NCBI GenBank assembly: GCA_020161615.1
Contig: JAIUPD010000015.1
Span: 1-64,000, forward strand
Length of the DNA stretch: 64,000 bases
Source: Pseudomonadota bacterium
GTDB lineage: Bacteria; Pseudomonadota; Alphaproteobacteria; Rhodobacterales; Rhodobacteraceae
Direction of reading: 5' to 3'
Shown here: positions 121-63,403 of the stretch, piece by piece
Position numbering within the stretch: the stretch's first letter is position 1
Layout of the letters: every line of letters starts with the position of its first letter
Made by a program: the position numbers and the translations under genes
Notes under the pieces: generated by a model
Seen by the model: the letters and a program-made list of their open reading frames with translations, nothing else
Database searches by the model: none
Told to the model about the DNA's origin: nothing

Positions 121-229
121 GGCAATTAACCTTTCCGAAACCCGCCTTCTTTGCGCTCCAAATATCCTCCAGGGGGGCCGGGGGGATGGAAAATCCCCCC
201 CCGGGGCCGCCACCGGGCGCAGGCTCTCG
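121..229 (-). repeat. Half-copy (A type) of the dispersed 3'-end intergenic element
   Basis: Read from the stop codon of the flavoprotein gene, this stretch has a C/G stem-loop (about 175-205), then GGAGGATATTT-ggagcg-CAAAGAAGGCGG, the same core as the A half of the complete copies near 9.45, 34.0 and 63.3 kb. It ends where the IS3-family terminus begins at 119, so the matching B half, if it existed, is displaced or lost. Confidence 0.6.
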
Positions 230-7131: not shown

Positions 7132-7290
7132 GCGAGGGGTTTCGCCCTCGGCCCCCGCTGTCGCGGGCGCCTCGGGCGACCAGCGGCGCCGCGTTCCGCG
7201 GCGCCGGAGAAGGGGGGCGCTGCCCCCCTCTTTGCTGCGCAAATTCACCCCCGGGGATATTTGCAGAACGAAGAGGGCGGGCTAGGCGCG
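7132..7290 (+). repeat. Variant copy of the dispersed 3'-end intergenic element between convergent genes
   Basis: Starting next to the trxB stop codon are gaggggtttcgccctc (a small stem-loop), gcgggcgcctcgggcgacca, a ggcgcc-rich hairpin and ggggggcgctgcccccc. The core is ACCCCCGGGGATATTT followed six bases later by CGAAGA. This is the A-half layout of the complete copies near 9.3 and 33.9 kb. No clear B half is seen before the end of the Nudix gene at 7326. Confidence 0.7.
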
Positions 7291-9319: not shown

Positions 9320-9662
9320 GAGGGGTTTCGCCCTCGTTGCCCGCCGTCGCGGGCGCCTCGGGCGACCAACGGCGCGGCAAGGCCGCGCCGAAGAAGGGGG
9401 GCCGTCTGCCCCCCTCTTGGCCTGACGGCCAATTCACCCCCCGAGGATATTTGAAGCGCAAAGAAGGCGGCTTAACGCCCCCTTAACTTTCATCTTTGTT
9501 CTGGAAATATCCTCGGGGGTTTCCAAAGGGGGCCCGAGGGTCCCCTTTGGCGGGGGGTGAGCGGCGTCTCGGAAACGCGCCAGTGGCGCGCCTCTGGCCG
9601 CGAACGCCGCGCCTGTGGCGCGGCCGGGAGTCGAGGGGGCTGGCCCCCCCGCTCCTTCCCGC
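9320..9662 (+). repeat. Complete A+B copy of the dispersed intergenic element, between convergent genes
   Basis: The A half (9320-9480) has stem-loops gaggg/ccctc, GCCCGC/GCGGGC, GGCGCGGC/GCCGCGCC, a G6/C6 hairpin and TTGGCC/GGCCAA, then CCCCCGAGGATATTT (9438-9452) and CAAAGA. The B half begins with the mirror CTTTG and AAATATCCTCGGGGG (9505-9519). It continues with tttccaaaggggg, GCGGCGTCTCGGAAACGCG and a GGGGGC/GCCCCC hairpin next to the symporter stop. The 15-bp arms are perfect inverted repeats 52 bp apart. Long parts are identical to the 33.9 kb copy, and the same A-B order recurs inverted at 63.1 kb. Confidence 0.9.
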
Positions 9663-9674
9663 GCAAGGACGCCG

Positions 9675-22534: not shown

Positions 22535-22625
22535 AAATGACAATCTTTGTTCCCCAAATATCCTCGGGGGATTTTCAAGGGAGCAGACGGCCCCCTTGAA
22601 GCGGGGGGCGGCAGCCCCCCGGCCT
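22535..22625 (-). repeat. Half-copy (B type) of the dispersed intergenic element, 3' of tldD
   Basis: Read from the tldD side, GGGGGGCTGCCGCCCCCC and a GGGGG-rich stem lead into AATCCCCCGAGGATATTT-ggggaa-CAAAGA at about 22570-22547. The match to CAAAGAT and the preceding hairpins is of the B-half type. There is no second half, and here the next gene (dprA) is on the same strand rather than convergent. Confidence 0.7.
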
Positions 22626-33888: not shown

Positions 33889-34255
33889 GGGGTTTCGCCC
33901 TCGGCCGCGATGCCTCCGGCGCCGAGGCCCCAGGAAACGAAACGGGGGGCGACCGGCGGCGCGGCGGTGCCGCCGCGCCGAAACAGGTAGGGGGGCCGTC
34001 TGCCCCCCTCTTGGCCTGACGGCCAATTCACCCCCCGAGGATATTTGAAGCGCAAAGAAGGCGGCTTAACGCCCCTTTAACCTTCATCTTTGTTCTAGAA
34101 ATATCCTCGGAGGTTTCCAAAGGGGGACCGAGGGTCCCCTTTGGCGGGGGTGAGCGGCGTCTCGGAAACGCGCCAGTGGCGCGCCTCTGGCCGCGAACGC
34201 CGCGCCCGTGGCGCGGCTGGGAGTCGAGGGGGCTGGCCCCCCGCGTGGCTCGGCC
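33889..34255 (+). repeat. Complete A+B copy of the dispersed intergenic element, between convergent genes
   Basis: It begins at the flavoprotein stop (tgaggggtttcgccctcgg). The A half ends with CCCCCGAGGATATTT-gaagcg-CAAAGA (34032-34058). The B half starts with CTTTG and AAATATCCTCGGaGG (34089-34113). About 34010-34240 is nearly identical to 9410-9640, including GCGGCGTCTCGGAAACGCG and the GGGGGCTGGCCCCCC hairpin before the folB stop. The gene-proximal 90 bp differ between copies. Confidence 0.9.
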
Positions 34256-34265
34256 CGCGCGGCGC

Positions 34266-63083: not shown

Positions 63084-63403
63084 CCCGCGGCGAGGCCGGG
63101 CGAAGGCGGGGGACCAGCCCCCTCGGCTCCCGGCCGCGCCACGGGCGCGTTTCCGAGACGCCGCTCACCCCCCGCCAAAGGGGACCCTCGGGCCCCCTTT
63201 GGAAACCCCCGAGGATATTGAAGAACAAAGATGAAGATTAAGAGGGCGTTAACCGGCCTTCTTTGCGCTCTAAATATCCTCGGGGGGTGAATGCCCGCAG
63301 GGCAGAGGGGGGCAGACGGCCCCCCTTCTTCAGCGCGGCGGCACGCCGCGCCGCTGGTCGCCCGAGGCGCTCGCGGCAGCGGGCAACGAGGGCGAAAGCC
63401 CTC
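63084..63403 (-). repeat. Complete copy of the dispersed intergenic element, inverted
   Basis: On the minus strand the order is A then B, starting at the panE stop (tgagagggctttcgccctcg). CCCCCGAGGATATTT at 63286-63270 is followed by CAAAGA; the mirror CCCCCGAGGATATT lies at 63208-63221 on the plus strand. GCGTTTCCGAGACGCCGC (63148-63165) and a gggggaccagccccc hairpin adjoin the paaZ side. Sequence and order match the copies at 9.3 and 33.9 kb. Confidence 0.9.

Follow-up and report, generated by a model that had tools for sequence, protein, structure and literature searches.

The 64,000-nucleotide stretch of alphaproteobacterial DNA analysed here (the window) carries three complete copies of a dispersed element, each of which fills the whole gap between two convergent genes (Table 1); a Pfam match on the called strand was obtained for each of the six flanking genes. 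In good agreement with a preliminary description of this DNA, which had reported three copies of about 340 bp spanning convergent gaps, parts of the first two nearly identical over about 230 bp and the third flipped, the copies measure 320–377 bp and lie at 9.3, 33.9 and 63.1 kb. Over 297 bp, the 9.3 kb and 33.9 kb units share 92.9% identity, while the unit at 63.1 kb matches the 9.3 kb unit in inverted orientation, with 90.1% identity over 273 bp. Core and mirror core are separated by 28 bp and not by the approximately 20 bp originally given. The left half of unit 3 is one T short, so that the core offset is 49 instead of 50. The stop codon, which had been placed inside the first stem, does lie there at 33.9 kb, but on reading the sequence it is merely adjacent to the stem at the other two copies. 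A search for the core CCCCCGAGGATATTT-N6-CAAAGA with up to three mismatches returned eight matches in the window and none in 100 shuffles. The mirrored architecture was seen in the three complete copies; since three additional cores in the window, at 148 (−), 7248 (+) and 22544 (−), are single, the full mirrored form is not the sole form of the element. An Rfam search of the window gave no match at the gathering score.

Table 1. Complete units, their parts and single cores in the window
Feature	Position	Strand	Basis or context
Unit 1	9320..9674 (355 bp)	.	whole convergent gap, sulfotransferase (+) / SSF symporter (−)
GC hairpin 1, unit 1 left module (GGGGGG..CCCCCC)	9396..9414	+	sequence; other copies share the module
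Hairpin 2, unit 1 left module (TTGGCC-TGAC-GGCCAA)	9417..9432	+	sequence; in genome G002 sequence changed, pairing kept
Core CCCCCGAGGATATTT-N6-CAAAGA, unit 1	9438..9464	+	pattern search
TTAA-N7-TTAA (CtrA-type box), unit 1 dyad axis	9472..9486	.	motif search
Mirror core, unit 1	9493..9519	−	pattern search
GC hairpin, unit 1 right module (CCAAAGGGGG..CCCCTTTGG)	9523..9550	−	sequence
Unit 2	33889..34265 (377 bp)	.	whole convergent gap, FAD oxidase (+) / FolB-domain (−)
Core, unit 2	34032..34058	+	pattern search
TTAA-N7-TTAA, unit 2 axis	34066..34080	.	motif search
Mirror core, unit 2, one mismatch	34087..34113	−	pattern search
Unit 3, in reverse orientation to units 1 and 2	63084..63403 (320 bp)	.	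whole gap, aldehyde dehydrogenase-MaoC (+) / ApbA (−)
Core without one T, unit 3	63206..63231	+	sequence
TTAA-N7-TTAA, unit 3 axis	63238..63252	.	motif search
Mirror core, unit 3	63260..63286	−	pattern search
Single core, two mismatches	148..174	−	pattern search
Single core, two mismatches	7248..7274	+	pattern search; convergent genes by gene calls, + gene without Pfam check
Single core, 3′ of PmbA/TldD gene	22544..22570	−	tandem gap by gene calls

Nearly every listed core fits the same half-unit order: a GC module with one or two hairpins, then CCCCC, then the bipartite AT-rich core, with the pattern GAGGATATTT-NNN-G(CG/AA)-CAAAGA. Among the cores listed, the hairpin modules recur as few types, and near-identical modules appear in mosaic combinations across copies. 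As judged by eye, identical modules bear different N6 spacers, which rules out the spacer as a hairpin-loop partner. The layout also accommodates other cores. The source genome has a sister core, GCGTATTT..GGCAAAGT, at eight places in the 1.66 Mb sample described below, and the congener G002, with only 12 matches to the own-type core, carries the sister core CGTATT-N3to5-GCAAGATGAA. Without exception, the 17 G002 sister-core sites have a second stem of 5 bp or more, and 16 of them have the first stem; the second stems comprise 12 distinct sequences, to be read against the 39% of random 26-mers that have such a stem. Two of the 17 sites lie inside called genes, and at least one of these (C36:37503, which has no GC modules) is probably a chance match. 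At G000:C7:8315 the hairpin strand CCACCCCCTTTGGAAACCCCC stands three times in tandem ahead of the core. The region 128001-528000 of contig C1 in genome G010 contains a second dispersed palindrome, around GGATGGGCAATATTGCCCATCC, whose 12-mers recur in four G010 gaps.

We next followed the distribution of the element across the source genome (4.87 Mb, 26 contigs), in which GAGGATATTT-N6-CAAAGA has 250 matches with up to three mismatches and the reversed control has none. Gap statistics were compiled for a 1.66 Mb sample that includes the window, using gaps of at least 30 bp, cores with at most two mismatches and genes from a purpose-retrained caller; these gene calls are approximate, and a part of the strands was checked with Pfam, most being used without such a check. 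In that check one or both neighbours were run for 12 of the 15 listed antisense or divergent sites, and 19 of 20 proteins matched on the called strand. A core was found in 41 of 136 convergent gaps (30%), 38 of 573 tandem gaps (6.6%) and 7 of 252 divergent gaps (2.8%), and core density differs both between convergent and tandem gaps (p = 2e-12) and between tandem and divergent gaps (p = 0.03). By site, the 116 sampled cores divide into 56 convergent, 47 tandem and 11 divergent, with one called coding and one at the edge of the window. The preference for convergent 3′ ends is thus real, though not exclusive; it is the bias on which the preliminary description had made its reading depend. The two relatives present a similar picture: in G010, 11 of 30 convergent, 10 of 131 tandem and none of 63 divergent gaps hold a core, and in G002 the sister core occupies 8 of 31, 5 of 147 and 2 of 45, respectively. 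A DNA uptake sequence is unlikely, because only 1 of the 116 sampled cores (at most two mismatches) is called coding. At two sites, G000:C1:44894 and C1:388773, the gene caller starts the next gene at the terminal ATG of the core (CAAAGATG), so that core and gene start may run into one another there.

Location downstream of the stop codon and a GC-rich stem-loop, both of which the element has, are what a terminator calls for. We scanned the three window copies for canonical intrinsic terminators, defining the U-tract as at least five T in eight, 0–2 nt past the stem, and found 0, 1 and 1 sites, compared with 0.8, 0.7 and 0.6 in shuffles. The site at 33.9 kb (34122-34105, −) stops exactly before ATATTT. 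In folding, the four bases (GAGG) that precede AUAUUU were paired with a mean probability of 0.51, and the last pair of the minimum free energy structure lay within one base of AUAUUU in 65 of 115 folds. Strand polarity was followed in single cores within tandem gaps: 19 are sense and 10 antisense (p = 0.14) with at most two mismatches, and 15 and 5 (p = 0.04) with at most one, which is weak for a one-way terminator. The U-rich part being weak, the scans at shuffle level and the polarity weak, we favour a boundary element over a proven terminator. The earlier reading of a modular, bidirectional 3′-UTR/terminator unit therefore stands as far as modular, bidirectional and convergent-biased are concerned, but its terminator part does not gain from the scans or the polarity.

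About half of the cores (57 of the 116) occur in pairs, and the second core is offset by 49–51 bp in 38 of 41 pairs from our sample and 400 kb of G010. The axis between paired cores carries a further motif. TTAA-N7-TTAA appears only three times in the window (0.01 expected), each time on the axis of a unit. The 1.66 Mb sample has 20 exact occurrences, compared with 0–3 for each of the other spacings from 3 to 12; 13 of these lie within mirrored pairs, another 3 next to single cores and the remaining 4 elsewhere, and 12 of the 16 exact boxes in elements are in convergent gaps. Only 3 of the 59 single cores have TTAA at the matching distance, and the box thus belongs with the paired form. Allowing one mismatch, there are 57 boxes at N7 against 11–19 at spacings 4–6 and 8–11, and 27 of the 57 fall within 45 bp of a core. 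The 30 near-consensus boxes outside elements, about twice background, include 14 in tandem and 13 in divergent gaps, an excess of the kind expected of a regulatory box.

Since many centres in the source genome and in G010 are copies of one another, their box counts are not independent: at least seven of the eight box positions are matched between mirrored cores in 22 of 29 own pairs (13 exact) and in 32 of 36 G010 pairs (18 exact), every other spacing giving 0–2. For the same reason G009, G006 and a set of 11 of the 36 G010 pairs with divergent centres are more telling. The box reached 7/8 in 6 of 11 pairs in G009 and 6 of 10 in G006, other spacings giving 0–2, and in 8 of the 11 G010 pairs, which were picked by eye and of which two have an identical interior. 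The interiors of the G009 and G006 boxes are mostly unrelated to our own, and shuffles of both sets give at most 1. Across the divergent-centre sets the interior is nearly without information while the TTAA halves are informative (no shuffle exceeds 2); the sets have a palindromic consensus, GGTTAACGNNNCGTTAACC. Pairs that do not have a 7/8 box number 5 of 11 in G009, 4 of 10 in G006, 7 of 29 in the source genome and 4 of 36 in G010. Own-type mirrored pairs were found in 6 of 18 genomes of the genus, the other 12 having none; this survey lists 18 of the 32 own pairs, and 16 pairs of G017 and one of G013 enter it as counts. Boxed pairs are present in six of the 292 genomes sampled, among them our own and G009, and in 4 of 289 outside the genus; the listings of boxed and of own-type pairs give each symmetric site twice. 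In another genus, L311 and L312 (genomes G131 and G335) hold long palindromes whose TATTT..AAATA ends enclose several TTAA sites.

The axis box agrees in half-sites and spacing with the CtrA box of Alphaproteobacteria, for which the excerpted texts of three papers give TTAA-N7-TTAA(C) (PMC9437464, PMC4046655, PMC7200025), and ctrA is encoded in the genome (L330:1450-2163; NF045991, 421 bits against a cut-off of 350). In the work on phage sites in PMC9437464, the TTAA halves were exchanged for GGCC. It differs in where it stands, namely on the symmetry axis of a repeat and mostly in convergent gaps rather than at promoters, and in the palindromic consensus of its divergent-centre form. Judged by this match, the axis box is likely to be a CtrA site. 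CenR is ruled out, as its motif, given as TGA-N8-TGA in the excerpted text of its source (PMC9275681), differs from TTAA-N7-TTAA; the same study left its peaks in convergent gaps out of consideration. The 200 bp upstream of ctrA itself contain two TTAA half-sites whose spacing is not N7. One of the four exact sample boxes away from elements (G000:C1:620033) lies upstream of a hybrid histidine kinase (L074:142-2526) whose best NCBIfam match is CckA, below the model cut-off.

A symmetric box of this kind could also act as a two-way antisense promoter, driving divergent transcription from the axis back into both 3′ ends, the more so as CtrA boxes are discussed mostly at promoters in the excerpted text of one source (PMC4046655). 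We regard this as very improbable: a scan of the three window copies detected no sigma-70-type promoter (the consensus may not cover CtrA promoters), and divergent gaps, where promoters usually lie, seldom hold an element.

BIMEs are said to recruit gyrase in enterobacteria, and the main rival to the boundary element is a supercoiling site: an AT island between GC hairpins, situated where positive supercoils meet, that recruits GapR and/or gyrase. The island is sharp, with 36–70% AT over the cores and centre and 17–32% in the flanks of a 68% GC genome, and spans about 72 bp between the hairpins. Convergent bias together with weak strand polarity is in keeping with such a site; the source genome has a GapR-family gene (PF10073), and, according to the excerpted text of one study (PMC8360656), GapR was more frequent between convergent genes when produced in E. 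coli and yeast. The AT preference of GapR is described there as modest in E. coli and stronger in GC-rich Caulobacter (PMC8360656), and a modest preference leaves the sequence-exact core, the fixed N6 and the exact N7 of the TTAA box unexplained. Furthermore, away from the elements an excess of N7 boxes is likewise seen in tandem and divergent gaps, as a promoter regulator would lead one to expect. On balance we consider the supercoiling site rather unlikely.

To follow the history of the element, we compared contig C1 of the source genome with G010, a close relative with approximately 91% identity in DNA. Across the 192 gaps of 20 bp or more that could be compared, a core is present in both genomes in 14, in the source genome only in none, in G010 only in 4 and in neither in 174. 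In each of the four G010-only gaps the own counterpart has a sister core (three found by search, the fourth by eye). With addresses kept in 14 of 14 cases and sister cores in place of the missing ones, no recent hopping is seen. The contents, in contrast, are altered at these fixed addresses, as alignments of the two genomes demonstrate. In the N6 spacers of 18 matched cores, 41 of 108 positions differ, compared with 7 of 288 at the 16 fixed core positions; the first three N6 positions differ in 27 of 54 comparisons, the fourth (G) in none of 18, and at the last two CG and AA replace each other in 7 of 18. In the 8 cores with 85% or more identity over the upstream 30 nt, N6 still differs at 20 of 48 positions; for the other 10 of the 18 cores the upstream 30 nt have been replaced or shifted (ungapped identity at most 0.70). 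Copy-to-copy exchange through the common fixed parts would be a simple account of the changed contents; a higher local mutation rate is a possible alternative.

The same observations bear on the idea of a selfish or passive REP/MITE-like repeat that spread in the distant past and survives mainly in convergent gaps because insertion elsewhere harms promoters. Near-identical modules in mosaic combinations, the low density in divergent gaps and the range of 2 to 295 core matches (at most three mismatches) among 18 genomes of the genus, some of which are incomplete or, like G002, use another spelling, are all compatible with it. One high-copy congener, G006, additionally matches Y1_Tnp at a marginal level (E 1.4e-4, 23.8 bits). 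The comparison with G010 speaks against it, as does the fact that hairpin pairing and the TTAA-N7-TTAA frame survive sequence change. So does the distribution of the RAYT gene (Y1_Tnp, PF01797): matches were found in 7 of 35 searched genomes, including G006 and the low-copy G012, but there were none in our own genome, G009, G010, G016 or G017. A repeat of this kind seems to us unlikely, and a RAYT-driven REP is rejected for the source genome, in line with the earlier view that this is no ordinary REP sequence.

Related cores extend well beyond the genus. The pattern GTATTT-N2to7-CAAGATGAAG was found in 20 of 150 family genomes, with up to 149 sites and no reversed-control match in any of them. 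The looser CCCC-N0to7-TATTT-N2to8-MAAGAWG had matches in 206 of the 292 genomes searched, representing 93 of 112 genera; the control gave 0–3 matches per genome and strand. This search was set at the level of the order, and all 292 genomes carry the family label of the source, and named matches point to Rhodobacteraceae/Rhodobacterales as the group. As CCCC with a variable gap matches one site repeatedly, site counts for this looser core are inflated, while the genome tallies are unaffected. Among the genomes with matches listed, the spelling of the core is lineage-specific and the short spacer after TATTT varies freely.

In kind, the element comes nearest to REP/BIME repeats on the one hand and bidirectional terminators on the other, without the RAYT gene of the former and without the above-chance U-tract of the latter. 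Like the RAYT-associated REP/BIME sequences of E. coli and Pseudomonas, it forms hundreds of intergenic palindromic copies with alternating orientation and mosaic pairs, as the genome matches and the paired cores counted above attest; REP/BIME elements also prefer 3′ ends, a further likeness. Unlike them, it is conserved in a bipartite AT-rich core that lies outside the hairpin, it carries TTAA-N7-TTAA on its axis, and its addresses are kept relative to G010. Tagged REP palindromes bear GTAG or CGTC at one end; of the 116 core-plus-80-nt stretches, GTAG is found in 2, CTAC in 1, CGTC in 34 and GACG in 43, counted anywhere in the stretch, with CGTC and GACG partly inside hairpin loops. With bidirectional intrinsic terminators it shares GC hairpins on both strands across convergent gaps; it departs from them in its weak U-tract (AUAUUU) with scans at shuffle level, in the long conserved sequence past the U-tract, in belonging to one many-copy family and in the central protein-type box. 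Caulobacter intergenic repeats (CIR), likewise long inverted intergenic repeats of an alphaproteobacterium, are tied to CcrM sites, whereas GANTC is present in only 1 of the 116 stretches. We found no description of the element in the open-licence literature, among the matches listed; judged by that search and by Rfam for the window, it appears to be undescribed.

Taking the evidence together, our preferred reading, which we hold tentatively and at nearly even confidence, is a dispersed two-way 3′-end boundary element in which hairpin halves flank a CtrA-type operator. The hairpins, together with the short AUAUUU, could act on the sense strand as a weak or protein-assisted terminator or as a stabiliser of the RNA 3′ end. 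In the host genus, which we infer to be Pararhodobacter, two half-units are often fused head to head around TTAA-N7-TTAA into a symmetric unit, which could serve both convergent transcripts. CtrA, or a regulator with the same box, may then bind the axis and create a two-sided roadblock or insulator; that a DNA-bound protein is able to end transcription in bacteria is stated in the excerpted text of one report (PMC10310618). Compared with one relative, the copies keep their addresses and change their contents in pieces found in other copies, presumably by inter-copy exchange. A more specific proposal, which we put forward from sequence and think unlikely as it stands, would place CtrA in many gene-end boundaries of Pararhodobacter, with the axis box, set between two hairpin terminators, acting when bound as a two-sided roadblock tuned by the level and phosphorylation of CtrA.

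The axis TTAA-N7-TTAA box, the fixed addresses with altered contents and the family-wide spread are what this analysis adds to the earlier reading. If the CtrA roadblock proposal is true, convergent-gene boundaries would be switched in concert, and the repeats would in addition titrate CtrA, 27 of the 57 near-consensus boxes of the sample being within 45 bp of a core. More generally, the axis box raises the idea of a regulator used at gene ends instead of promoters. Fixed addresses with shifting contents offer a natural system in which to measure exchange between dispersed repeats. Finally, if the element marks transcript ends, it would aid in defining where genes end in a large group of bacteria from marine and soil habitats.
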